Source of the DNA: Verrucomicrobiota bacterium
GTDB taxonomy: Bacteria; Verrucomicrobiota; Verrucomicrobiia; Limisphaerales; UBA9464
DNA: 58,302 nucleotides
Direction: 5' to 3'
NCBI GenBank assembly: GCA_947471985.1
Contig: CANIZL010000034.1
Location: 1 to 58,302 of the forward strand
The notes beneath the pieces are model-generated. The model was given only the letters and a program-made list of their open reading frames with translations, searched no databases and was not told where the DNA came from. Both the position numbers and the translations under genes were made by a program. This document shows positions 34,618 to 47,308 of the stretch, piece after piece (the stretch's first letter is position 1; every line of letters begins with the position of its first letter).

Positions 34618-35667
34618 TCAAGGCGGCGTCACCGGGAGAATCTCCACGCCCGCTTCACGGCGGAGGCGGGCCGCGTACTCCGGCGTCCGCAGTTCCTGTT
34701 CGCGTCGCAGCAACAGGGTCCGGATGTCCGCCGCCACCGCGGTCAGCGGCTGCTGCCGGGCGGGAATGCGTTCGCGGCCGAGCAGCAGTTGCAGGCCGTA
34801 GGGTGTGGTGACGATCTCACTCAGCTCCCCTGACTTGAGGGCAAAAGCCGCTTTTTCCAGCGCCGGATCCAATTGCCCGCGAACCAGCGTATATTCCCCG
34901 CCGGTCTCCCGGGTGGTGGGATCCTCACTGTATTGCTTCACCAGCGCCGCGAAGTCGCCTCCGGCCCGGATCTGTTCCCGCAGCTTCTTCAATTGCTCCA
35001 ACTTCTCCGCCGTGCGGGTCGCGGGTAGCGCCTCCCCTTTCTCGGTCTGCGTCGACAGCAGAAGCACGGCGACGCGCACCTGTTCTGGTTGCTGCCAACG
35101 GGCGGGGTTCTCCTCGTAATACTTGAGGATGTCCGACTCCGGCAGATGGATGGAGGCCCGGACTTCCCGTTCCGTGACCGCCAGCGCCAGGGACTCCGTC
35201 AACTTCTCCGCCCGGAACTCCGCTTCGGTCAAGCCCACGGCCTGTAGGCGCGCGAGGAGCGCCGCCGGCGATCCCAAGTCCCGTTGCAAGCCGTCGACGA
35301 ACGAGCGGGATTCGAACTGCGCGCGCGCCCGGTCGGCCGGTGTGGCGCTGGCGGCTGCTAGGCGCGTGAAGATCATTTGTTCCAGGATATGTCCGGGCAA
35401 CGCCTTCGCCTGCGCCGCCGAAAGGGCCCGGCCGGAATTGGTGATCTCACTCAAGGTGCGTCGGACGCGGGCCTCCAATTCCGCCGCGTGGAGAATCAAT
35501 CCCCGCCCGCGGGCGACCACCGGCGACCGATCCTCCCCGGGCGTCGTCGCTGCCGGCTGAACCTTGGTGGGTGTGCCCTCCGCGCCCTGGCTCGTGGCGC
35601 ACCAACCAGCGAGCAGCAAAGCACGCAGACCCGCAGAGCGGACGCGCCGGAGACGCAATTTCAACAT
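34618..35667 (-). CDS. Periplasmic peptidyl-prolyl cis-trans isomerase, parvulin/SurA-like
   Basis: A 349-residue exported protein: signal peptide (LRALLLAGWCATSQGAEG), a helical SurA_N-like chaperone region (residues about 55-190) and a rotamase domain (about 195-305) with GGDFAALVKQYSEDPTTRET, GGEYTLVRGQLDPAL and LKSGELSEIVTTPYGLQLLL. The domain order matches PrsA/SurA-type folding factors that assist outer-membrane or secreted proteins. It is divergent from the TonB-dependent receptor gene, so a chaperone role for that outer-membrane barrel is plausible. Its 3' end is only 22 bases from the convergent end of the macroglobulin gene. Confidence 0.88.
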   Translation of the reverse strand: MLKLRLRRVRSAGLRALLLAGWCATSQGAEGTPTKVQPAATTPGEDRSPVVARGRGLILHAAELEARVRRTLSEITNSGRALSAAQAKALPGHILEQMIFTRLAAASATPADRARAQFESRSFVDGLQRDLGSPAALLARLQAVGLTEAEFRAEKLTESLALAVTEREVRASIHLPESDILKYYEENPARWQQPEQVRVAVLLLSTQTEKGEALPATRTAEKLEQLKKLREQIRAGGDFAALVKQYSEDPTTRETGGEYTLVRGQLDPALEKAAFALKSGELSEIVTTPYGLQLLLGRERIPARQQPLTAVAADIRTLLLRREQELRTPEYAARLRREAGVEILPVTPP

Positions 35668-35882
35668 GGGGATAACCTCGTCGAGACATTTGCCGGGACA
35701 CGCGAATTTTACCGGATCGACACGTCAGGGTCGGACCGATGTTTAAACCTCCCGGCCGCGCAACAATCGGCACAGCGGGGAGAATAGGCTTGCCTTTCCG
35801 AGACTTCGGGGCTTCGCTCGCACGAGATATAACTTCCTGGAACGAGAATCTCCGGGCGGGGAATCAGAAAAAACCAATCCGT

Positions 35883-38795
35883 ATGAGCACCAAGTCCATC
35901 CATGTCTTGGGGCGAGTCGAGATAGCTCGACGGTCATTGACCGTCGGTCTTGGCGCCCTCCTCATGGTTCCTGTCGCGCTCGCGCAGGATGCCAAAACCG
36001 CAACCGCCCCCGGCGATGCTGGGGAGCTCAAACCGGTGACGATCCGAACCGGATCCAACATCCCCAGCGCCGAGGAGGAAACGGTTTCCCCGGTCACCAC
36101 CTATACCGCCGAAGAGATTGCCAAGATGGGCGTGACGGACCTGAGTTCCCTCACGCAGCGACTACCGATCTCCAGCCAGGGCGGACTCGCGGGCAACAAT
36201 GGGGGTACCGGCTTTGCCCAGGGTGGCACGGGCGTTTCTCTCCGCGGTCTGGGGCTCAATGCCACCTTGGTGTTGTTGAATGGACGCCGCGTGGCGCCCT
36301 TTAGTTACGGCAGCGGTGGCACCATTACCTTCGTTAATCTCAATTCCCTGCCCTTGGAAGCAGTCGAGCGGGTGGAGATCCTCCGTGAAGGCGCCTCGGC
36401 GATCTATGGCGCGGACGCGATCGCAGGGGTCATCAATGTGGTGACTAAAAAGGATTTTGACGGCCTGCTGATCAAGGCCCGCTACGGCAATACCTTCTCC
36501 ACGGATACGGCGAGCCAGGCGTACTCGCTCACTTATGGAACCCACAGCAAGGACAATAAGACCTCCGTCTTGATCGTGGCGGATTACCTGAAGCAGAATT
36601 CGCTCTTCAATCGCGATCGGGCGTTTTCTTCCCAGACGGATGCCACCGGATTGAGTGTCTATGACGACGGCACCGGGCAAAGCTGGCCGGGTGCCAATCT
36701 GGGATCGACGGGGGGATACCCTGGCTATTTTACGGTGCCCCGGAATGCCCCCGGGCTGGTGGGCACTCCTTATGAGGGTACGGCTGGCACACGAAGGCTT
36801 GCCCCTCCCAAAGACACGAATGGCAGTGCGCCGGCCTCCGCCTATCACCTCGCCGGGCTGCAAGCCTATCCCGAGCTGGGGTCCGGGGAGGATCTCTATA
36901 ACTTTCTGAAGGATTCGCAGGCAACGCCGGATTCGGAGCGCTACGGGATTTTTGGGGCCATCGATCACCAGATCTTCGACGAAAAAATGGTGGTGTTCGG
37001 AACGTTCCAGATGCAGCGCGACGTCGAGCACGTGGAGTTGGCGCCCGCGCCCATCAGTTTTGCGGGCAATGGCTCCGGGATCGGAATCCCCCTGGGGGAG
37101 GTGCGGTATAAGAACGGATTCAAGATTACGGGGAATCAAATCACCATTCCCGTTGCCAATCCGTGGAATCCCTTTGGTGCGGATATTGTCGGCGGACAGT
37201 ACCGGTTCGTCGAGGCGGGTAACCGGCTCTATGACACCATTTCCCACAACTATAATTTTGTCGCCGGCCTGAAGGGTGACATCGACCCGCTGGGGCGGCT
37301 CAGTTACGAGACAGCCGTTTCCTACTCGCGGTCCGAGGACAACCGCCGGGAGGTGCAGATCGGAACCCAGCAGGTGCAAAATGCCCTGAACGATTTGAAC
37401 CTGGCCACGTCGTTGAACCTGTTTGGGGGGGCGAATTTCCACAATAATCCGGCGACGATCGAAGGGCTCAAAGTGCGGACTATCCACGAGGCGGGCACTC
37501 AGATTGCCAGTTGGGACGGCCGGATCTTCGGCAACATCGAGGCGCCCTTCTGGAAGCCGGGTAAATTTGGTTATGCGGTGGGTACTGAATATCGGGAGGA
37601 ACGCTTCTTTGACCATCCGGATGAACTCTCGAAGGCCGGAGCCCTGGTCGGATCGTCGCCCACGCGTGAAAGCAATGGGCATCGCTCCAGTGAGGCAGCA
37701 TTTATCGAGAGCACCATTCCGCTGGCAGGCCCGGAATTCAATGTGCCCGGCATTTACCGCTTCGACGTCAAGGCGGCCGGCCGGTTGGATAGCTACAGTG
37801 ATTTCGGTGAATCCGTGGTGCCGCTGGTGGGGCTCATCTGGCGCCCCTTCAATGAAGACCTGCTGTTCCGCGGAACCTATGGACAGAGCTTCCGGCCGCC
37901 TTCTCTCCGACAGCTCTTCAACGCGCCGCAAGATGCCCTGACCGGTGCTCCGGTCCGCGACCCGCTGCGTCCGGGTGATCTCCTGCCCCAAGTGCCGATC
38001 GTCACCGCGGGCAATCCCAACCTGCAACCCGAGACCTCCGACAACTGGTCTGTCGGTTCGGTGTTCACTCCGCACCAGATTCCCGGCCTGCGCCTCGAGG
38101 CGCAATGGTTCCAGATCAAGCGGCGCAACGAGATCTCGCAGCTCTCGCAGACCCTGGGCGGGACGAGCGCCATCGCCGGCATCCCTGGCAACTACACCCG
38201 GGATCCCTATGACGGAAATCCCCGCGCCCTGATTGATCCTGTTACCGGACAGTTGGCCGGGCCCCTCGTCTCCCTCGTGGATTCCTACGTCAACGTGGGC
38301 ACCACCATTGTCGACGCCATCGACGCAGGGGTGAGTTATGAGCTCAAGACCGAGACGGCGGGGACCTGGCTGTTCAGCGTCGAGCTGACCCGCATGCTCA
38401 GCAACCGCTCGGAAGTCAATCCGGGCGATGGTTACGGCGAGGCCGTGGGACAGGTGCTGCAATTCGACGGCTGGCCGAAGTGGCGGGGCATCGGTTCCGT
38501 TACCTGGGACTATCGCAAATTGCAACTGGGCGCCATGGCGGATTTCCGGAGCGGTCTGGATTATCCCCATCCCGGTTGGGATTCCACCGGCTATGCCCAC
38601 GTGAATTCCTTCCTCACCTTTGACCTGCAGGCGTCCTACAATCTGCCTTGGCAATCACGGATCACCGTCGGCATCCGGAACTTGATGGATTCCGATCCGC
38701 CGCTTTATATCGGCGATCAAGGCCAGTGGTATATCAGCACGTTGGATAATCCCTTCGGGCGCAGTTACTACATGGAGCTTAGCAAGAAGTTCTAA
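35883..38795 (+). CDS. TonB-dependent outer membrane receptor
   Basis: A 970-residue outer-membrane protein: signal peptide (LTVGLGALLMVPVALAQ), then a plug domain with VSPVTTYTAEEIAKMGVTDL, GVSLRGLGLNATLVLLNGRR, VERVEILREGASAIYGADAI and AGVINVVTKKDFDG. The 22-strand barrel has GTYGQSFRPPSLRQLF and NPNLQPETSDNWSVG, ending in SYYMELSKKF with the terminal Phe needed for barrel assembly. It would import a large ligand using the Ton complex; neither tonB nor exbBD is present here. There is no SusD-like neighbour, so it is not a classic polysaccharide-utilisation pair. The frame opens 48 codons further upstream, but the signal peptide begins at ATG 35883. Confidence 0.93.
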   Translation: MSTKSIHVLGRVEIARRSLTVGLGALLMVPVALAQDAKTATAPGDAGELKPVTIRTGSNIPSAEEETVSPVTTYTAEEIAKMGVTDLSSLTQRLPISSQGGLAGNNGGTGFAQGGTGVSLRGLGLNATLVLLNGRRVAPFSYGSGGTITFVNLNSLPLEAVERVEILREGASAIYGADAIAGVINVVTKKDFDGLLIKARYGNTFSTDTASQAYSLTYGTHSKDNKTSVLIVADYLKQNSLFNRDRAFSSQTDATGLSVYDDGTGQSWPGANLGSTGGYPGYFTVPRNAPGLVGTPYEGTAGTRRLAPPKDTNGSAPASAYHLAGLQAYPELGSGEDLYNFLKDSQATPDSERYGIFGAIDHQIFDEKMVVFGTFQMQRDVEHVELAPAPISFAGNGSGIGIPLGEVRYKNGFKITGNQITIPVANPWNPFGADIVGGQYRFVEAGNRLYDTISHNYNFVAGLKGDIDPLGRLSYETAVSYSRSEDNRREVQIGTQQVQNALNDLNLATSLNLFGGANFHNNPATIEGLKVRTIHEAGTQIASWDGRIFGNIEAPFWKPGKFGYAVGTEYREERFFDHPDELSKAGALVGSSPTRESNGHRSSEAAFIESTIPLAGPEFNVPGIYRFDVKAAGRLDSYSDFGESVVPLVGLIWRPFNEDLLFRGTYGQSFRPPSLRQLFNAPQDALTGAPVRDPLRPGDLLPQVPIVTAGNPNLQPETSDNWSVGSVFTPHQIPGLRLEAQWFQIKRRNEISQLSQTLGGTSAIAGIPGNYTRDPYDGNPRALIDPVTGQLAGPLVSLVDSYVNVGTTIVDAIDAGVSYELKTETAGTWLFSVELTRMLSNRSEVNPGDGYGEAVGQVLQFDGWPKWRGIGSVTWDYRKLQLGAMADFRSGLDYPHPGWDSTGYAHVNSFLTFDLQASYNLPWQSRITVGIRNLMDSDPPLYIGDQGQWYISTLDNPFGRSYYMELSKKF

Positions 38796-38821
38796 TCCGT
38801 TTGGGTCCGCGCATCACTGCG

Positions 38822-38862
38822 AAAAAGCCGCCGGTTCCGGGAAGGAAGCGGCGGCCATTTTT
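38822..38862. terminator. Bidirectional terminator between receptor and methyltransferase genes
   Basis: Stem GCCGCC (38827-38832) and GGCGGC (38850-38855), preceded by AAAAA (38822-38826) and followed by TTTTT (38858-38862), in the 83-base gap between convergent genes. The flanking A- and T-runs allow termination in both directions. Confidence 0.8.
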
Positions 38863-38878
38863 GTCTCCCGATTTGCCG

Positions 38879-39919
38879 TTAAGACGTCCGGTTCTGAAAA
38901 CGGTAGTGGCTGACATGCCATTCATTGCCGCCGCGGAAGCCCCACAGCTCGGCGCACGCGAGGTAAAAGATGCGCCAATACACCCACCACTTGGTTTCAT
39001 TGCCGGGACCATAGGTTTGCCGGAAGATCGTACGGATCTCCGCTTCGTTCTGGTCCATGTTGGCCAGCCACTGATGGGCGGTGCGTTCGTAGTGGCGGCC
39101 ATTCACCACCCAGTGCTGCTCCAGCCGGAGATCCCGCTGGAAATACAGCAGCAGATCATCGCTGGGCATGATACCGCCCGTGAAGAAATACCGGCTCATC
39201 CAATCGGTCTCATCCCGGGCAATGAAGTGGTAGGCGTACTCACGGTGGGTGAAGATGTGCACGAACAGTTTGCCGTCGGGCTTCAACCAACGGCCGATGT
39301 TGCCCAGCAGGCGCTCGTAGTTCTTCAGGTGCTCGAACATTTCCACCGACACCACCCGATCAAACTGGTGATCCCCCCCGGGCGGTTCGAAGTAGTTCGC
39401 GTCGCAGGTGATGATCGTGACGTTTCGCAAGCCGCGCTGCGCCGCCTGGGCGTCGATGTGCAGTTTCTGGGTGCGCGAATTGCTGACGCCAACGATGCGG
39501 GCCTGGGGATATTTCTCCGCCATCCACAAGGTCAGGGAACCCCAGCCGCAGCCGAGTTCGAGAATGCGTTGCCCGTCGGCCAATTCAGCGCGTTCGCCGG
39601 TCAATGCGAGCATGGCTTCCTCGCCTTCGGCCAGGCTTTCCGTGAACGTCGGGTAATAGCCGGACGAGTATTTCAGCCGCGGCCCGAGGCAGAGTTGATA
39701 GAAGCGGGTGGGAACCTCGTAGTGTTGCTCGTTGGCCGCGGCGGTTTCGATGGCGATCGGCGACGTCCGCAACTCCGCGACGATTTCCAGCAGATGCGCC
39801 CGTTGGGTGGCAACATCCGGCCGCTTCTCCTCACGTAGGCGTTGACGCAGCAAACGGCGGATGCCGAAACGGAGGACGGCGTCCGGGAAGACGTTTTGAA
39901 CCAGCAAATTATCCAGCAT
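38879..39919 (-). CDS. SAM-dependent methyltransferase, CFA synthase / coclaurine N-methyltransferase-like
   Basis: A 346-residue cytosolic protein that is the last gene of the lipid cluster. It starts [20 protein letters not shown], typical of the coclaurine N-methyltransferase-like branch of the cyclopropane synthase family. The SAM site is [20 protein letters not shown], then GVSNSRTQK, the conserved [14 protein letters not shown] and [13 protein letters not shown] (equivalent to the IFPGG-PS region of CFA synthases). It lacks the long N-terminal domain of true CFA synthases. Its substrate could be a fatty-acyl chain or an amine; sequence does not settle it. ATG 39919 is 13 bases after the DUF1295 stop; the frame upstream (to 39994) overlaps that gene and is rejected. 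Confidence 0.85.
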
Positions 39920-39932
39920 GACGGAGGCGGGG

Positions 39933-40772
39933 TTAGGACTTGAACCAGGGGATGAAGGCGCTGGTGGTGCGCTGATATTCCCGATAGGCCTCACCCTTCG
40001 ATTTGAGCGAGAGCGCTTCGGTCATGGGAATGCCGGTGACGTTGACGAGAAAGTGCCACATGAGCAGCGGACTGAGCAGGCCCAGCCAACCGCCGGGAGC
40101 CCCCAACGCAAAGGCCGCGTAACCGAGCCAGATGACCCACTCAAAAAAGTAATTGGGGTGCCGCGAATAATACCAGAGCCCGTCCTGACAGACCTGACCA
40201 CGCCGCGTGGGATTCGTGCGAAAGCGGGCCAGTTGGCGGTCGGCGATCGTTTCCCCAAGCCATCCGAAGCTCCAGAGGGCGATCCCCAGCCAGGCCCACG
40301 GTCCGAGAGTGAAGTGGGTCGTGTGTTGGGGATCCAGTAGGGTGAGCAGCCAGGGCACGGACAACACCACTTGCAGCGCGCCTTGCAGCAGATAGAAGCC
40401 GAACATGCGCCGTGCCTCCCCGGCACCCCATTCCCGCCGCAGTTCGGCGTAGCGCACATCCTCCACCGGGTGATGCGAGCGAACTCGGACGAAAAGATGT
40501 CCCCCGAGCCGCGCGGCCCAGAGGACCACCAATACGGTAAGGGTCCACGCGGCGGGCCAATTCCATTCGGGATACGCGTTGAGTTTGGTGTCGTAGTGCC
40601 AGCGGGCGGCGAGCCCCAGATAGAGCAGCACCAACGGGGCAAAGCCCAGGGACCACACGACGTCCACGACCCCGTAGTTTCGCACCCGTCGCGCGAACGC
40701 AAAGGTGGCGGTCATTTCGAGGATAACCCACAGGAGACCGGCCAGGGGGAGCCAGAGGTACGGGGAATTCAC
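39933..40772 (-). CDS. DUF1295 integral membrane protein, steroid 5-alpha-reductase-like
   Basis: A 279-residue polytopic membrane protein with about seven hydrophobic segments. The C-terminal region has the family hallmark [20 protein letters not shown] with the R-H-P-N-Y-F motif shared by 5-alpha-reductase, isoprenylcysteine methyltransferase and DUF1295 proteins, where it binds NADPH or SAM. It ends in [19 protein letters not shown], also typical. In many bacteria it lies in clusters with a CFA-like methyltransferase and DUF1365, as here, and reduction of a modified acyl chain is a reasonable guess. Start is GTG 40772, seven bases after the upstream stop, with no Shine-Dalgarno, so translational coupling is expected. 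Confidence 0.88.
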
Positions 40773-40779
40773 AGGAGGT

Positions 40780-42096
40780 TCACTGCATCAGGGCGCGGCA
40801 GTTGGGGCCTGCCCAGGTGGCTTGAACCACGCTGATGTTGCGCCAGGCAAAAGCGGCTTCGCAGTACGCGAGGTAATAATCCCACGTGCGGATGAAACGG
40901 TCGTCGAAGCCCAGCTCCCGAACCGCCTCGAGCTGCCCATGGAAACGGCTGCGCCATTCGCGCAGCGTGCGGGCGTAGTCGAGTCCGAGGTCGTGCAGCG
41001 AGTGCAGCGACAGCGACCCTGTCCGCTGCGCCACCGCCCCGACGCGGTTCATCGAGAGCAGCAGGGAACCGGGGAAGATGTGCTTTTGAATCCAATCCAC
41101 GTTGCGGCGGAATTCCCCGTGCCGGTGATCGGGACAGGTGATGAATTGCGCGGCAAACAGACCGTTGCGCTTTAACAGGGATTGCACCTTGCGGAAATAC
41201 GTGGGCAGAAAGGCGTCGCCTACGGCCTCCAGCATTTCCACGCTGACAATCTTGTCGAACTGGCCCTCCAGTTCCCGGTAATCTTGCAATCGCACTTCCA
41301 CCTGATCCGCGAGGCCCTCGCGCCGAAGGCGTTCGGTGGTGTAGCGATATTGCTCGTCGCTGATGGTGATCGTCGTGACCCGGCAGCCGTAATGCTGCGC
41401 CGCGTGAGCCGCCATGCCGCCCCAACCGGAACCGATCTCCAGCAGGTGATCCGTGGGAAGCAGTCGGAGTTCACGGCACAAACGGTCGTATTTGGCGGAC
41501 TGAGCGGCCGCCAGGGATTGGTCCGGCGCTTCAAACAGGGCCGCGCTATAAGTCATGCTTGGATCCAGCCACAGCGAGTAGAAGCGATTTCCCAGATCAT
41601 AATGGGCGTGGATGTTGGCGGCGGAGCCGGCGACCGAATTGCGACGGAACGCGTGATGCACGCGACTGGCGAGGTGGGATCCCGACCGCAGGCTGCTCAA
41701 CAGCCAGTCCCGCTGCCGGGAACCCGACATGCCGGGGGACTGATCCACATTCGCGCAAAACCAACCGATGACCGCCGGCAGATCCGGGGTGTCCCAGTCG
41801 CCCGCTTGATAGGCTTCGCCAAAGCCCAGATCCCCGGAGCGGGCGCAGCGCCGAAAGAAATTATTACGCCGCACGTGCATCACGACCTCGGGTCCGTCAA
41901 GACCGCGCCCGAACACCTGTTGGGACCCATCCGGCAGGCGCATCGTCAAGCGGCCGTTTTGCATTGGCGACAGCGCCCGCGTGACCAATTTTTGGGCGGC
42001 CCGATCCAGCCAGGAGGATCCGATCGCGTGCGTGCCGGAGGACGCGTCTGCGTGGGATTGGAGCAGCGAATACGAGTTGGATTCAGCGTCTTTCAC
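40780..42096 (-). CDS. Cyclopropane-fatty-acyl-phospholipid synthase family methyltransferase
   Basis: A 438-residue enzyme of the CFA synthase family, which adds a methylene (or methyl) group from SAM to the double bond of unsaturated acyl chains in phospholipids at the inner membrane face. It has the N-terminal lipid-binding domain (FGEAYQAGDWDTPDLPAVIG), then HYDLGNRFYSLWLDPSMTYS, the SAM site LLEIGSGWGGMAAHAAQHYG, IVSVEMLEAVG (active-site Glu), and QKHIFPGSLLLS, which aligns with the bicarbonate-binding loop. Length matches true CFA synthases. The start is GTG 42096; the next internal Met is residue 45. It is 133 bases downstream of the DUF1365 stop and overlaps closely with DUF1295. Confidence 0.9.
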   Translation of the reverse strand: MKDAESNSYSLLQSHADASSGTHAIGSSWLDRAAQKLVTRALSPMQNGRLTMRLPDGSQQVFGRGLDGPEVVMHVRRNNFFRRCARSGDLGFGEAYQAGDWDTPDLPAVIGWFCANVDQSPGMSGSRQRDWLLSSLRSGSHLASRVHHAFRRNSVAGSAANIHAHYDLGNRFYSLWLDPSMTYSAALFEAPDQSLAAAQSAKYDRLCRELRLLPTDHLLEIGSGWGGMAAHAAQHYGCRVTTITISDEQYRYTTERLRREGLADQVEVRLQDYRELEGQFDKIVSVEMLEAVGDAFLPTYFRKVQSLLKRNGLFAAQFITCPDHRHGEFRRNVDWIQKHIFPGSLLLSMNRVGAVAQRTGSLSLHSLHDLGLDYARTLREWRSRFHGQLEAVRELGFDDRFIRTWDYYLAYCEAAFAWRNISVVQATWAGPNCRALMQ

Positions 42097-42229
42097 AGGA
42101 GGTGCAGGGAAAGCAGGTGGAGCGACGGGCGGCAGTGGCCGGCCGGTTCGCGGCGGGCAGGGGGCACGGTGTTGTCCGCATTCTGGTGGTCGACCGGGGC
42201 GGGTGTCGAGTGAGACTTCACGGCGCGGA

Positions 42230-43126
42230 TCATGAGTGATGGGATTCGGCCGGCGGGAGCGTGGGGGCGATCACCGCGGTGCGTGCCTGCTTCAGCGAGG
42301 CGTGGGGGCGATACACACCCAACTGCTTTTCTGATTGGGCCGCCTTCGCGTGCCACGGAACCCGCTTCCACCAAAGTTTCAACGCCTGCCAGTGAATGAG
42401 GGTGATCACCCGCAGCGTGACCAGAGGATACTTGAGGGTGAGTCGGGCCAGTTCGCGATCGGTCAACGGGCGACGCTTCCCGGTCAGGGTGCTAATCAGC
42501 ACCGTCTGATCGGCGGTGACATCGTTGACCGTGATGACCAACTGTTCGCCCGGGGTGCGGAGTTGGAAGTCAAAATTCAACTCCAGATCGCTGAACGGCG
42601 ACACGTAGTATTCCTTGGGCACCACCACCCGGAAGGATTCCGGACCGGTCGCTCCGGGGGATGTGGCGCGGACCGGGATCAAATACGGTTTCAGTTCGCC
42701 AAACGTATTTTGCACCTCGGCCACGGCGCAGAGCGGAGTGCCATCGGCGCGGTGACAAAAATAGAAACTGACCGGGGCGAAGATGTAGCCAAAAACCCGG
42801 GGCAGGGTGACCAGGAGCACACGGGCATCGGTGGGCAGGACCACGTTCTGCCGCCCGAGCCAGAGGGACAGTTGGGAGCGCAGGTCAGGAGCGTCGGCCC
42901 CGGCGACGAGGTGATCAGAATCCCGGAATTCGTACGCATTGCGCCGGTTATGGCTGAAAAAGCGGAGCCGTTGGGCCACGGCCGGAAGCTCGGCCAGGTC
43001 CACGGCCAGCATGAAGATGCCGTACTCGAACCGATGGGATCGGGGGATGAAACGCTGATGCATCACGCGACACTCGTAGAGGCACGAGCGCCCGGGCGAT
43101 GCGGAACTGATTTCAGCGGTGGCCAT
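42230..43126 (-). CDS. DUF1365 domain protein
   Basis: A 298-residue protein of the DUF1365 family: SCLYECRVMHQRFIPRSHRF, FGYIFAPVSFYFCHRADGTP, EVQNTFGELKPYLI, FRVVVPKEYYVSPFSDLELN, and the C-terminal LTLKYPLVTLRVITLIHWQALKLWWK. Its function is unknown, but across bacteria it neighbours CFA-like methyltransferases and often an FAD-dependent amine-oxidase-like protein. Here it is the first gene of a four-gene minus-strand cluster in which that FAD protein is missing. ATG 43126 is chosen; the open frame continues 31 codons upstream into the repeat-rich region with no family similarity. Confidence 0.9.
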   Translation of the reverse strand: MATAEISSASPGRSCLYECRVMHQRFIPRSHRFEYGIFMLAVDLAELPAVAQRLRFFSHNRRNAYEFRDSDHLVAGADAPDLRSQLSLWLGRQNVVLPTDARVLLVTLPRVFGYIFAPVSFYFCHRADGTPLCAVAEVQNTFGELKPYLIPVRATSPGATGPESFRVVVPKEYYVSPFSDLELNFDFQLRTPGEQLVITVNDVTADQTVLISTLTGKRRPLTDRELARLTLKYPLVTLRVITLIHWQALKLWWKRVPWHAKAAQSEKQLGVYRPHASLKQARTAVIAPTLPPAESHHS

Positions 43127-43239
43127 GGCACGGAGGCGCAACCGGAAGGACTGCGCTGAAGAGGGAAGCACAGCTTCCCGAAAGCGCCACCCGAGGAAGG
43201 CGGAAAATCGGGGGCCCAAAGTGCCGTCGGCGGCCCCCG

Positions 43240-43297
43240 GTTCGGAGTCCCGCCTTCAGGCAGTGAGGTGGGCACCTGTAAGAGCGCGCCCCCAATT
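43240..43297. repeat. Intergenic repeat copy 1 (GTTCGGAGT-CCGCCTTCAGGC type)
   Basis: The first 22 bases differ from copy 2 at one position only, then identity falls but islands GCAC, TGT, CGC and CCCC remain in register. Centre of each unit is a short palindrome, CCGCCTTCAGGC(GG). It resembles the dispersed repeats that yield the recurrent spurious peptide LKAELRT in Verrucomicrobiota genomes; this link is from memory. Confidence 0.65.
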
Positions 43298-43407
43298 CCC
43301 CCCACCCGATGCCTCACCCGCAACACATCCCAGTAGCGAAGGCCGGGATTTCACCCAAAGCAGAGCCGCTAAAACCCTGTCGCGTGGGGTTCGGGTTCGG
43401 CTTCGAA

Positions 43408-43466
43408 GTTCGGAGTTCCGCCTTCAGGCGGTGGCGCATGCACTTGTTAAAACGCTCCCCAATGTC
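43408..43466. repeat. Intergenic repeat copy 2
   Basis: Direct imperfect copy of 43240-43297, 168 bases away. It contains the perfect palindrome CCGCCTTCAGGCGG at 43418-43431 and is preceded by TTCGGGTTCGGCTTCGAAG, a run of degenerate TTCGG units. Not part of any gene. Confidence 0.65.
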
Positions 43467-43574
43467 CTCAATCTCCCCACCCACGCCGCCGGCTGAATCC
43501 AACGATTCGAACGCCAACCGCCAAGGCCCTCGGCGCAGTCCAACCGCCGTACCGTTGTCGGCCGCAGCGCCCGG

Positions 43575-43943
43575 CTAACCCGCCTTCCGCTTCCGGAACA
43601 GGGCGCGAAGCCATAGGCCCCCACAAAACCCCACGACACAACCGCCAACGTTCGCGATCACCAAGCCGCCAACGAACGCGATGATCACTGTCGCGGTCGC
43701 CACGCCCTTCGCGATGTCGGAGGAAATTTCCGGCGCCGACTTCTGGCCCAAGGTCAGCAGTCCCCAAGCCACCAGCCAGAACAGGACGTTGCCGAGAATG
43801 AAGCCAGGCAACGTCCCGAGCGCACCCCAGAAGATATAGGAACTCCACCTCCGCAGCTCCCGAATGAACCAAAACACCAACGAAACCGCCAGAAGCCCGA
43901 TAAAGAGCAGCAAATAGGCCGGAAATATGAAGAAGTACGGCAT
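43575..43943 (-). CDS. Small membrane protein of unknown function (3 spans)
   Basis: A 122-residue hydrophobic protein with spans near residues 4-27, 36-66 and 78-112 and a basic C-terminus (LWLRALFRKRKAG), which would stay cytoplasmic. No family is recognised. It is the left-most gene of a long run of small minus-strand genes. Start ATG 43943 encodes MPYFFIFPAYLLL and there is no in-frame alternative. The 160-base gap upstream contains no gene. Confidence 0.6.
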   Translation of the reverse strand: MPYFFIFPAYLLLFIGLLAVSLVFWFIRELRRWSSYIFWGALGTLPGFILGNVLFWLVAWGLLTLGQKSAPEISSDIAKGVATATVIIAFVGGLVIANVGGCVVGFCGGLWLRALFRKRKAG

Positions 43944-44103
43944 GAAGCGCGGGGTCCGTTAACGCCCTTCACCGTGATCCGCCAACGAAGCCCCCGCGAA
44001 ACAAAATTCCCTCAAGACAGCCAACCGTCTGGCGTCAGCCCGACCCATCAGAGGCGTTCAGGCCCAGCGCTCATTTGCAGATAGGCCATTCAGGCGGCGC
44101 AGA

Positions 44104-44478
44104 TCAGCCGGCGTGGTCATCGGAAATCTTACCGGTATCCCAAACGATCTGACAGCGTGGACACGCCAACTGAAACCGGGAGCAGGTGGTGTACGGAATG
44201 GGCGCCAATTGAACCTGCAGGCGCCCGCTGCACGTCGGGCAACGGACGAGGTGATAAACGTAGATGCCTTGTGCGAACGCGAGAAAGGCCGGCACGCCAA
44301 AGCACCAGGCCGAGTCGGTCACCAAGGTGCCAGCAACGGTGCCAACGAACGCAACGGCCCAAACCCAATCCGGAAGAAACACCCGGCGCGGGAACGGACG
44401 TGCTGGCTCCATGGGCGTGAGCGTGTCAGCGGTGGGCTGTGGTTTACGGGTAACGGCAGTTGCCTCCAATGAATTCAT
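44104..44478 (-). CDS. Small membrane protein with C-terminal zinc ribbon
   Basis: A 124-residue protein with two closely spaced membrane spans (about residues 34-53 and 57-78) followed by a four-cysteine zinc-binding tail: Cys80/Cys83 (CPTC) and Cys106/Cys109 (CPRC), facing the cytoplasm in the simplest topology. No family recognised. ATG 44478 is chosen over a TTG eight codons upstream. It starts 48 bases after the stop of the membrane-protein gene at 44527, so the two may be co-transcribed. Confidence 0.62.
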   Translation of the reverse strand: MNSLEATAVTRKPQPTADTLTPMEPARPFPRRVFLPDWVWAVAFVGTVAGTLVTDSAWCFGVPAFLAFAQGIYVYHLVRCPTCSGRLQVQLAPIPYTTCSRFQLACPRCQIVWDTGKISDDHAG

Positions 44479-44526
44479 CGATGCCCTCGCCGGCCTGACC
44501 AACGATCTGCTTTCCCCTTCAAATCG

Positions 44527-45039
44527 CTATTTGGCGCCGCCCTTCTCACTTTGACTCAAGATCTGCGGGACAAACCGCTCGGAAAAGCCGGCGACAAACG
44601 ACCAGAACAGCAGCTTCGCCAGATCCGGTCCGGTCGAAGGATACGTCTGGGAAAAGAAATTCCGGATGTCTTCAGTGGTGGGGATGGGCGTGGAAAAGGG
44701 CGTGCTGGAAAACTGCGGAAAAAGCGAACCGTCCACCAACTTGCTCAAAAAACCGACGTAGAGCACCAGGGCAAAAATGCCCCCGTAAACGGGAATGAGC
44801 AGCACCTGAAACCACGACCGGGACAACAACTCCAGATCCTCGTTTCCAAATTTCTTGAGCCGCTGTTGAATGCTGACAAATCCGCCGAGCAAGCCGCACC
44901 CAAAACACGCCCACGAAACCATGAACCGGTCCCCGCGGATCAGGGTGAACCCGAAGAGGGCGACCACCAGTCCCAACGCGCAGGCCGTCATGAGAACCAG
45001 GCGCTTGGTGATGGTCAGTAACTGTTCGCAACGTGTCAT
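44527..45039 (-). CDS. Membrane protein of unknown function with AGFSERFVP motif
   Basis: A 170-residue protein with hydrophobic segments near residues 14-33, 40-56, 77-98 and 139-152. The C-terminal stretch LLFWSFVAGFSERFVPQIL is a recurrent motif of small uncharacterised membrane proteins in many bacteria. It supports a real gene, although the function is unknown. A conserved-looking loop GGFVSIQQRLKKF follows the second span. Start ATG 45039; stop TAG. It is preceded by an 829-base region without a gene but rich in repeats. Confidence 0.68.
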   Translation of the reverse strand: MTRCEQLLTITKRLVLMTACALGLVVALFGFTLIRGDRFMVSWACFGCGLLGGFVSIQQRLKKFGNEDLELLSRSWFQVLLIPVYGGIFALVLYVGFLSKLVDGSLFPQFSSTPFSTPIPTTEDIRNFFSQTYPSTGPDLAKLLFWSFVAGFSERFVPQILSQSEKGGAK

Positions 45040-45511
45040 AATACGGACGCACGGGGAGCCCCTACTTCAGTGCCGGGCAATCCCGCTCCACCCAGGCGCA
45101 GAGGCTGCGAGATTCCCTCGTAACATCCCCACCAATAGTCGATGGCGCGGAGAAATGAGTTTTGGGGCCGTCCGTGTGCCAACCGCGCAACTGTGTCACA
45201 GTGGCCCAGACTTGGGCAACCCCGAACTGGTGACCCAGACGGAAGTGAGAGCGAAAAACGGATCCATCGAGCGGGCCCCATTCCCCGGCATCGCACGCGC
45301 GCAACGACCGAATTCGCGACGCCCGATATCTGAATTCCGAGGTCCGACGATTGGCTGCATTCGTCAGGCGGGAAGGAAACGCGCGCCAACCCGGCCGCAG
45401 CCTGCCGAGGTTGCCGACGACCTCCGATCAGTCCGCAATCGGCCATATCGAATCACGAGAGCTGATTGAGAATTAAGCGCATAGAGCAACCGCACCCCAA
45501 GCGCCCACAAA

Positions 45512-45747
45512 GCGCCAGGTTCACCGTCCCCCCTCCACGGTGCCAGCCTCCCTATTTCACCTGCGAAAACATCGGGCCAGGTTCATCATTCGAACCCACT
45601 GAAGAGCGTGCCATCCTCCCTATCCGCCCGGCGTAGCGATCGTGCCAGGTTCGTTATCTTCGCGGGATAGGGAGCTTGGCACGCTGTCTGGCGCACGGGG
45701 GAATTGGGAGCGTGGTACCACCTCCACCCGGCAGTGAACCTGGCACC
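45512..45747. repeat. Cluster of CCTGGCACC repeats (second of two)
   Basis: Copies in both orientations. Inverted: GCGCCAGGTTCA 45512, GGTGCCAGCCTC 45539, GGGCCAGGTTCA 45574, CGTGCCAGGTTC 45641. Direct: GAGCTTGGCACG 45672, GAACCTGGCACC 45736. Degenerate forms at 45606 (GCGTGCCATCC) and 45708 (GAGCGTGGTACCACC). GGGCCAGGTTCA is identical to the inverted copy at 24820, and GGCACGCTGT occurs in both clusters. This marks a dispersed repeat family rather than chance. Confidence 0.75.
45606..45684. repeat. Long imperfect inverted repeat (about 20 paired bases)
   Basis: Left arm 45606-45627 and right arm 45662-45684 pair as GCGTGCCA/TGGCACGC (8 bp), a 2-base mismatch, CTCCCTATCC/GGATAGGGAG (10 bp), one bulged base and GC/GC. 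The 34-base loop contains a further repeat copy (45641-45652). The whole could fold into a stable RNA or cruciform; it has the size and layout of a REPIN-like or MITE-like element. Confidence 0.7.
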
Positions 45748-45868
45748 TTTGATTGGCAACTACGGGGATGCCGATTCGGCTACGGTTACGGCTGCGGCGG
45801 TGCGCCGAGTTTAAAGATTCCGCTTGGATGCCCCTTGCCCCGGTCGCTTTCCGCGGGTTGCGCAGTTC

Positions 45869-47308
45869 TCAATTAGGACCCGTGGCCGTGCCGGTTTTCC
45901 AATCCGCCGCCTTCAGGTCTGCAAGTTTGGCCGCATCCGGATCGTTGGCCTTTCGGCACGCCTCGATGCGGTCCAACAGGCCGGTGAAGTCGGCTCGGTG
46001 ACGGTCGCGCACCGGGCCGGGGATGGAGGCGAGCCCAACCGCAATGACCGCCGTCTCCTTCAGAAGCCAACCGTTCCGGTCTCCCGGTGAACTGGCGGTG
46101 GTGCTGTCATACCAAGCAACCTGCTGCTTCAGTACACTCCAGCACCGTTCCTGCACGGCCTCGGGCAAGGCCTCCGGCTTCAGGCTGAGCAGCAGCGCGA
46201 CGTGGTCGCGTTGCGTGCTGTCGCCGTCCTCGAAGAACGCCGTCACTCGGCGGACCCAATCCGGCTGCGCCGCGAGTTGAGCGAGCGCGGTACGAGTCGA
46301 ATCCAGCGTATCGAAACTGGTCGCGCGCAGGAGATCTGGAATGCGAATGTCCGTGGCGCCGCGAGTGCTCGCGGCCGGAATCCGCACCGGTTCGCCTTTC
46401 AAGTCCGCGAGCACTTTCCGCAGCAGGTCCGGAACCGGAATCGGGTACTCGTCCCGGCGCAGGATCTCCCACTCCAATAGCTCGGGAAGCGATCCACCAC
46501 TCAGCTTCTCTTGTTTCCACTCGGCACCGCGCTCGATGAGGAGGCAGGCGACATACCAATTCCGGTTCGCGACCGCGTGTCCCACCGGCCCGCGACCGTC
46601 CGGCGCCCGCAATTTAAGATCCGCACCGTGATCGAGCATCAGACGCAATCGCTCGGTGGCGGCTTCGTCCTCGCCCGGTTGCATGGCTCGCCACCAGACC
46701 GGCCGTTGTTCGGAGTCGAGCACATAAGGATTTGCACCCGCCTCCATCAGGAATTGGGTCAGCCGGGCACCGGTGGCGAGGGCGTGCAGGAGCGTGTCGG
46801 CGGAGGTGTCGCGCTTTGGGTCCGCCCCGGCAGTCAGCAGAACCCGCAATAGGTCGATGGCCTCCTCGGAATTGCCACTCTGCAAGACACCGAACTGCCA
46901 CAGGCTGGTGCCACCACCGTGAGGTTGATTCAAATCGCCGGCCGCCGGTATCAGCTGTTTGACCGCCGCGAGGTCCTGCCGCACCAAGGCTTGGGCCAGG
47001 CTCAATGCCGGACCCTGAAAATAGGCGCTGCCGCTGAACTGCCGTTGTTCCTGGATCCGCTTGGCGGTGGCCAGAATGGACGTGGCGATCAAAGGTACCG
47101 ATGCCAGCAGCAGGACAAGCAGGGCGGCGATCCGCCAGCCATCGGAACGGAGCAGTGGGAAGGAGCAGGCGGTCAGGGTTAGGACGCCGATGACGAACAG
47201 GAAGATGGCCACCAACAGCCCGTGGGTCCCACTCGCGAAAAGCCTCCACAAAACCACGGCCGCGATCCCGTCGAAAGCGACCACCGCCCAGAATATTTTC
47301 GCCATCAT
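45869..47308 (-). CDS. Membrane-anchored ankyrin repeat protein
   Basis: A 479-residue protein with three N-terminal membrane spans (about residues 4-22, 28-50 and 58-80), then ankyrin-type repeats between about 99 and 270: LAQALVRQDLAAVKQLIPAA, LLRVLLTAGADPKRDTSAD, LLHALATGARLTQFLMEAG, RLRLMLDHGADLKLRAPDG and HAVANRNWYVACLLIERGA. The C-terminal 200 residues are helical without a known family. Ankyrin repeats mediate protein binding, so this may be a scaffold at the membrane; in islands of small genes such proteins can act as immunity-type binders. ATGATG at 47308 allows either of two starts. Confidence 0.8.
   Translation of the reverse strand: MMAKIFWAVVAFDGIAAVVLWRLFASGTHGLLVAIFLFVIGVLTLTACSFPLLRSDGWRIAALLVLLLASVPLIATSILATAKRIQEQRQFSGSAYFQGPALSLAQALVRQDLAAVKQLIPAAGDLNQPHGGGTSLWQFGVLQSGNSEEAIDLLRVLLTAGADPKRDTSADTLLHALATGARLTQFLMEAGANPYVLDSEQRPVWWRAMQPGEDEAATERLRLMLDHGADLKLRAPDGRGPVGHAVANRNWYVACLLIERGAEWKQEKLSGGSLPELLEWEILRRDEYPIPVPDLLRKVLADLKGEPVRIPAASTRGATDIRIPDLLRATSFDTLDSTRTALAQLAAQPDWVRRVTAFFEDGDSTQRDHVALLLSLKPEALPEAVQERCWSVLKQQVAWYDSTTASSPGDRNGWLLKETAVIAVGLASIPGPVRDRHRADFTGLLDRIEACRKANDPDAAKLADLKAADWKTGTATGPN

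Follow-up and report, generated by a model that had tools for sequence, protein, structure and literature searches.

A four-gene DUF1365, methyltransferase and DUF1295 cluster of a Verrucomicrobiota bacterium is probably the larger half of a divided furan fatty acid locus

We analyzed a cluster of four genes on contig CANIZL010000034.1 of the genome assembly GCA_947471985.1 from a Verrucomicrobiota bacterium. The stretch examined, hereafter the window, is 58,302 nucleotides long and makes up the entire contig C34 of a genome of 6.38 Mb in 180 contigs. Four open frames run on its minus strand from 43126 to 38879 and encode, in this order, a DUF1365 protein, a cyclopropane fatty acid (CFA) synthase-like methyltransferase (MT1), a DUF1295 protein and a second, coclaurine-type methyltransferase (MT2). 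These four genes probably make up the greater part of a furan fatty acid locus that came apart, with its flavin adenine dinucleotide (FAD) enzyme and its fatty acid desaturase now encoded on another contig, C36. The window and C36 supply all four families of the published furan pathway.

As described for Rhodobacter sphaeroides and Rhodopseudomonas palustris, UfaM methylates 18:1 chains on phospholipid, so that the chain gains a methyl branch and its double bond moves, with no methylene formed, and UfaD, an FAD enzyme, introduces a second double bond (PMC7380195). UfaO, which in R. sphaeroides contains DUF1365, then adds an O2-derived oxygen and closes the furan, and FufM puts a second methyl onto the furan ring; the same account predicted the presence of this enzyme set in many bacteria (PMC7380195). 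In the genome of the window, we found both a DUF1365 protein, as in UfaO, and an FAD amine-oxidase-like protein, as in UfaD. MT1, a PF02353 protein with an incomplete cyclopropane site, and the coclaurine-type MT2 were placed by family as the counterparts of UfaM and FufM.

The identification of the four genes in the first-pass annotation, made from the sequence alone, was borne out by Pfam and by a match of MT2 to a solved structure. The DUF1365 gene (42230..43126, minus strand; 298 aa; PF07103, E 9.4e-76) encodes a UfaO-type protein predicted to carry out the O2-dependent furan-forming step. The UfaM-type MT1 gene (40780..42096, minus strand; GTG start; 438 aa; PF02353, E 2.3e-85) is predicted to serve the first methylation of an unsaturated chain. 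The DUF1295 gene (39933..40772, minus strand; GTG start; 279 aa; PF06966, E 4e-60), which is present as a single copy according to a genome search, encodes a predicted membrane reductase that would use reduced nicotinamide adenine dinucleotide phosphate (NADPH) and has a steroid-reductase fold; the protein also matches PF02544 above the cut-off (36.2 versus 22.6 bits). MT2 (38879..39919, minus strand; 346 aa; PF02353, E 1.9e-38) is a probable FufM, predicted to methylate the furan. Its frame opens at 39994, the likely start being the ATG at 39919. The best solved relative of MT2 is coclaurine N-methyltransferase (6gkv, E 5.4e-72), and its nearest named relatives, among the matches listed, are metagenome-assembled genomes of Verrucomicrobiota (Limisphaerales, 'subdivision 3', Pedosphaera). 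The intergenic gaps calculated from the coordinates are 133, 7 and 13 bp, so that the compact arrangement described earlier holds for the last three genes and less so for DUF1365. Among the six PF02353 matches in the genome, the four outside the locus score at most 28 bits, and a third CFA-like gene was rejected on this ground; MT1 and MT2 are the sole strong CFA-family genes of the genome. Given that the same arrangement occurs in relatives and in other phyla, the gene grouping is not due to chance.

The first-pass annotation had noted that an FAD oxidase was absent. This holds at the locus, where a Pfam scan detected no FAD protein among the six neighboring open reading frames (ORFs) from 34618 to 47308, but not in the genome, where the search that it had recommended led to an FAD protein of the expected kind at G000:C36:42732-44045 (PF01593, E 7.3e-28). 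A fatty acid desaturase gene (PF00487, E 3.7e-19) precedes the FAD gene by 254 bp, and 20 of the 30 FAD loci have a desaturase match no more than 1.5 kb from that gene. The C36 protein shares 42-46% identity with the cluster FAD proteins from Shinella and Caballeronia. Among the three PF01593 proteins of the genome (on C30, C36 and C51), only the C36 copy fits as the FAD partner. As read from the translations, the C30 match, located between hemN-like and hemH-like genes, looks like a protoporphyrinogen oxidase, and the C51 match resembles the small subunit of glutamate synthase; both were rejected. Note that a PF04116 fatty acid hydroxylase-family gene faces the C36 FAD gene (8089-8865 of L070), and that a search of the other 29 FAD loci with this gene detected no copy next to any of them.

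The FAD enzyme and the DUF1295 protein go together across genomes. Strong matches (E<1e-20 for DUF1295 and DUF1365, E<1e-50 for the FAD enzyme and E<1e-40 for MT2) to both were found in 32 of 58 genomes, including that of the window, and to neither in the remaining 26; Fisher values for this co-occurrence are too small owing to the relatedness of the genomes. Of the 32 genomes, 31 also have MT2 and 30 also have DUF1365. At the looser threshold of E<=0.001, matches to DUF1295, DUF1365, the FAD enzyme and MT2 were obtained in 36, 32, 37 and 52 of the 58 genomes, respectively. Inside the family to which the window belongs, 31 genomes have both genes and four (G006, G011, G018 and G031) have neither. 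The two genera to which these four belong also include genomes with both genes, suggesting that the DUF1295 and FAD genes were lost together.

In the outgroup genome G055, which belongs to another family of the same order, the genes for the desaturase, FAD enzyme, DUF1365, MT1, DUF2062, DUF1295 and MT2 form a run on one strand, and G002 and G003 have a similar run. G004 carries the FAD enzyme, DUF1365, an MT1 piece, DUF1295 and MT2 together on a single contig. The remaining 28 of the 32 genomes carry the FAD gene and the DUF1295 gene on separate contigs, although many of the assemblies are fragmentary. Of the fetched relatives in which MT1 and DUF1295 are at least 480 bp apart, most carry a small DUF1475 protein or DUF2062 between the two; in the window only 7 bp separate these genes, and the single DUF1475 match of the genome is on C75.

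The gene set is old and widespread. We scanned genome contigs with an MT2 alignment and retained 80 loci, the best of at least 580 and biased to close relatives, which include loci from Verrucomicrobiota, Bacteroidota, Gammaproteobacteria and Vampirovibrio. The gene immediately before MT2 was DUF1295 in 65 of the 73 loci with enough upstream sequence (eight exceptions; the 7 of the 80 loci with <900 bp upstream of MT2 are omitted from this count), and the FAD enzyme, DUF1365, MT1 and DUF1295 were all within 7 kb of MT2 in 32 of 41 fully flanked loci. Plasmids were sampled as 60 of 61 DUF1295, 44 of 44 MT2 and 60 of 96 DUF1365 records, with many near-identical strains among them. DUF1295 was found within 138 bp of MT2 in all 44 MT2 records (MT2 E<=1e-30), whereas 32 of the 60 listed DUF1365 records had no DUF1295 on the same record, indicating that DUF1295 accompanies MT2 more than the furan-forming core. 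On the other hand, 16 of the 60 DUF1295 records were without MT2, which counts against a strict tie between the two; the Legionella lytica plasmid, for instance, has the FAD enzyme, DUF1365, CFA-like and DUF1295 genes and no MT2. The surroundings of the plasmid clusters (L091, L092, L095 and L096) repeatedly include genes for a photolyase, a lipocalin or proteins of the chalcone-isomerase family, DUF2878, DUF2177 or DUF2256.

We compared MT1 with the E. coli CFA synthase at the bicarbonate-site residues of cyclopropane synthases, C139, E239, H266, I268 and Y317 (PMC3132707). At these positions MT1 of the window has A, E, Q, I and Y, and it has Ala at the H240 position. The H266 position is Gln in 61 of 62 MT1 proteins from clusters, the remaining one having a gap, and C139 is substituted in 53 of the 62. 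The CFA enzymes of G011 and G018, which are without the gene set, and that on contig C90 of G004 carry the full C, E, H, I and Y. MT1 therefore does not have the full canonical bicarbonate site of a cyclopropane synthase. In G004, whose complete CFA enzyme is the one on C90, the cluster MT1 on C46 (L182-L183 region) keeps the family residues only in the first half of the domain, as if frameshifted.

The DUF1295 protein had been called 5-alpha-reductase-like, and both the predicted fold and the alignable NADPH positions agree with this. Its AlphaFold2 model (mean pLDDT, the predicted local distance difference test, 93.7) resembled the delta14-sterol reductase 4quv (Z 15.7, 4.1 Å, 245 residues), PbSRD5A 7c83 (Z 14.8, 4.3 Å, 214 residues), SRD5A2 7bw1 (Z 13.9, 4.2 Å, 205 residues) and, with Z values of 12.1 to 11.4, ICMT chains; the Foldseek E values were weak, 4.7e-3 at best. 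A single-sequence search of the PDB gave no match up to E 1. The window protein was aligned with 53 of 63 extracted frames, near-duplicates and short and over-long frames being left out by eye, and the alignment was compared with the NADPH residues of SRD5A2 (PMC7815742). D164 and N193 were kept in 54 of 54 sequences, R171 was R or K in 54 of 54, and E197 was Glu in 44, Gln in 9 and Val in 1, while the N160 position was Glu in 54 of 54, so that four of the five alignable NADPH residues are kept; R227, H231, Y235 and the Q-E-Y enone-polarizing motif of SRD5A2 fall outside the alignments. At the RHPNY motif, DUF1295 has Asn (54/54) and Glu (44/54), as SRD5A2, PbSRD5A and the C14 reductase have Asn and an acid, whereas Met and Leu occupy these two positions in ICMT 4a2n, the one ICMT sequence compared. 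The kept NADPH positions and these reductase-type residues make it likelier that DUF1295 is a reductase than a methyltransferase. Taken together with the incomplete bicarbonate site of MT1, the reductase features of DUF1295 make an ordinary cyclopropane product doubtful, as the first-pass annotation had supposed.

From the observed gene set, gene order, co-occurrence and active-site residues and the predicted fold, we infer the following course, in each of its reactions and products. The desaturase would make a cis-monoene, which MT1, acting like UfaM, would methylate on phospholipid with a shift of the double bond. The C36 FAD enzyme would then add a second double bond in the manner of UfaD, the DUF1365 protein would add O2 and close the furan in the manner of UfaO, and MT2 would put a second methyl onto the ring as FufM does. 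DUF1295 would be an integral-membrane NADPH reductase kept beside MT2. The expected products are mono- and dimethyl-furan fatty acids, which would scavenge singlet oxygen and radicals and so protect membranes from reactive oxygen. Furan acid is reported to be consumed under singlet oxygen, which, as cited there from earlier work, kills cells unable to make furan acid (PMC7380195).

Several points weigh against this assignment. The genes were assigned to UfaM, UfaD, UfaO and FufM by family and not by comparison with RSP1090, RSP1091, RSP2144 and RPA0924, and the identity of the window's DUF1365 protein to three cluster copies from Proteobacteria is low, at 23-38%. G006 has DUF1365 but neither DUF1295, the FAD enzyme nor MT2, and G020 has the other genes of the set but no DUF1365 match. 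The published assays were run with UfaD, UfaO and FufM proteins and no DUF1295, which in them is not required for furan formation or ring methylation (PMC7380195); the role of DUF1295 is therefore more likely around the product than in its making. In addition, the Gln of MT1 is no proof of its product, because cotton GhCPS1 and GhCPS2 also have Gln and make cyclopropanes, while GhCPS3 does not (PMC3132707).

The cotton enzymes also bear on the possibility, which we regard as very unlikely, that MT1 makes cyclopropane acids as in plants and the FAD enzyme merely boosts the reaction. GhCPS1 and GhCPS2, which share H266Q with MT1, are fused to an FAD oxidase domain, and removal of that domain lowers activity by about 70% (PMC3132707). 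However, DUF1365, DUF1295 and MT2 would then be left unexplained, two genomes of the window's family that are missing the set have, in its place, a CFA enzyme whose C/E/H/I/Y site is complete, and the same paper reports that cyclopropanes were not detected from the Agrobacterium pair or, in an earlier analysis, in Arabidopsis (PMC3132707). The first-pass annotation had proposed reduction of a methylene intermediate to a methyl branch; the product of published UfaM is not a methylene but a chain that carries a methyl branch and in which the double bond has moved (PMC7380195). A reduced methyl-branched product is nevertheless possible, in that DUF1295 could act on a UfaM-type chain, which would fit the pairing of DUF1295 with MT2. 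Methylation of a double bond by MT1 or MT2 and reduction of the resulting alkene by DUF1295, leading to saturated mid-chain methyl-branched lipids, would parallel sterol C24 methylation and its subsequent reduction, and both the sterol/steroid reductase fold and the position of DUF1295 next to MT2 (65/73 loci, 44/44 plasmid records) are as expected of a methylase-reductase pair. We consider this course decidedly unlikely, as the same genomes hold the FAD enzyme and DUF1365, which are required for furans but not for reduction. The methylase partner in 10-methyl systems (BfaA/BfaB, TmsA/B) is a PF01565-type reductase, and none was seen among the scanned neighbors: PF01565 (FAD_binding_4) had no match in the 10 ORFs around the locus, the rest of the genome not having been searched for it. 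With its FAD partner on C36, the set matches the published furan pathway (PMC7380195) better than a 10-methyl pathway, and a methyl-branched lipid is less supported than a furan.

DUF1295 may also be no lipid reductase at all, serving instead as an electron supplier to UfaO or as an ICMT-like membrane methyltransferase, which we hold to be highly improbable. The reductant of UfaO is stated to be unknown (PMC7380195), leaving a place for such a supplier, but DUF1295 is absent from the same plasmid in 32 of the 60 listed UfaO-type records. ICMT shares the fold, and the best sequence-profile match of DUF1295 in the PDB is AtTam46, by name no reductase; the Asn and Glu of the motif, set against the Met and Leu of ICMT 4a2n, speak the other way. 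Within the furan pathway, the likeliest task of DUF1295, which we put forward tentatively and at less than even confidence, is the reduction of an activated double bond, either in the furan lipid itself or in its oxidation product. Steroid 5-alpha-reductases reduce enones (PMC7815742) and oxidized furan acids are described as dioxoenes (PMC12595405), which led us to the idea of furan recycling. Singlet oxygen or radicals would open the furan chain to a dioxoene (2-ene-1,4-dione), the activated double bond of which DUF1295 would reduce with NADPH to a 1,4-diketone; the diketone would reclose to the furan by loss of water, and a reactive lipid would be removed. Closure of a 1,4-diketone to a furan is Paal-Knorr chemistry, although at neutral pH it may be slow without help. 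The link of DUF1295 to MT2 rather than to UfaO would mean that the repair serves dimethyl furans. That DUF1295 is such a repair enzyme of furan lipids is, in our estimate, unlikely. A link between DUF1295 and furan lipids was not found in the open-licence literature; in Chlamydomonas, the CFA1, CFA2, DUF1365 and DUF1295 genes are all reported to be induced by singlet oxygen in a SAK1-dependent manner (PMC4067076).

The predicted model of the DUF1365 protein (pLDDT 90.3) is a beta-barrel with weak likeness to nitrobindin/lipocalin-like and fatty-acid-binding barrels (Z 6.5 at best). The likeness is too weak as a foundation and is possibly a lead on the cofactor of UfaO. Note that the DUF1365 alignment comprised the window protein and 44 of 53 frames, with the same exclusions by eye as for DUF1295.

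Several alpha- and betaproteobacterial clusters begin with genes for a sigma factor and an anti-sigma factor, the latter annotated as ChrR in two of them; ChrR is the singlet-oxygen regulator of R. sphaeroides. Relatives of the ChrR and sigma factor of the plasmid clusters were found neither in the window nor within 16 kb of sequence surrounding the C36 genes. In two Verrucomicrobiota clusters (L099 1-480, L104 139-660), a sigma-factor-like gene, 34-38% identical to that of the Caballeronia cluster, lies divergently just before the desaturase gene, placed as in the ChrR-type clusters. Scans for sigma-70-type promoters and terminators remained at chance level. The non-coding stretch before DUF1365 contains two copies of a 21-base sequence (43240-43260 and 43408-43428, minus strand), and one further copy is present in the genome, on C25; shuffles of the window gave none.

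With these results, an odd cluster of methyltransferases and DUF proteins in Verrucomicrobiota becomes a testable candidate for a furan fatty acid locus, with look-alike clusters in Bacteroidota, Proteobacteria and Vampirovibrio. The results also illustrate that a missing neighbor gene can be a relocated one. DUF1295 is singled out as a conserved reductase candidate beside the second methylase. If DUF1295 does reduce oxidized furans, a stoichiometric scavenger would become a catalytic one and furan lipids a rechargeable membrane antioxidant. We did not find the split of the locus, its Verrucomicrobial setting or the fixed DUF1295-MT2 pair described in the open-licence literature.

Among known systems, E. 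coli cfa shares PF02353 with MT1 (35.9% identity over 357 columns) and differs at C139, H240 and H266, which are A, A and Q in MT1. PbSRD5A (7c83), SRD5A2 (7bw1) and the delta14-sterol reductase (4quv) share the DUF1295 fold and the Asp and Asn of the NADPH site, at 15-18% identity and with the Asn160 position replaced by Glu in 54 of 54 DUF1295 sequences. In Arabidopsis, the same enzyme families were proposed for furan lipids, namely AtUFAMD1, AtUFAO1 and AtFUFM1/LIME1, with AT3G23510 resembling both UfaM and UfaD, AT1G30130 UfaO and AT4G33110 FufM; unlike in bacteria, the UfaM and UfaD similarity is in one protein, and the proteins are on lipid droplets (PMC10940516). R. sphaeroides has the same CFA-like methylase, FAD desaturase and DUF1365 protein (RSP2144 ufaM, RSP1091 ufaD and RSP1090 ufaO), at more than one locus, as in the genome of the window. 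It makes a monomethyl furan, for which RSP1087-1089 are not needed, and the dimethyl form required added R. palustris FufM (PMC7380195). R. palustris itself makes dimethyl-furan acids with RPA2569-2571 (ufaM, ufaO, ufaD) and a second methylase, RPA0924 (fufM), which is apart from the other three. The gene adjoining fufM, RPA0923, may be a DUF1295 gene, though this is a guess of ours. RPA0923 was deleted by the authors of the furan study (PMC7380195). The Acinetobacter sp. WY4 plasmid (NZ_CP053948.1, L091) has a parallel gene order, the same families following one another as desaturase, FAD enzyme, DUF1365, CFA-like methyltransferase, DUF1295 and MT2 in a cluster that, unlike that of the window, is unsplit.

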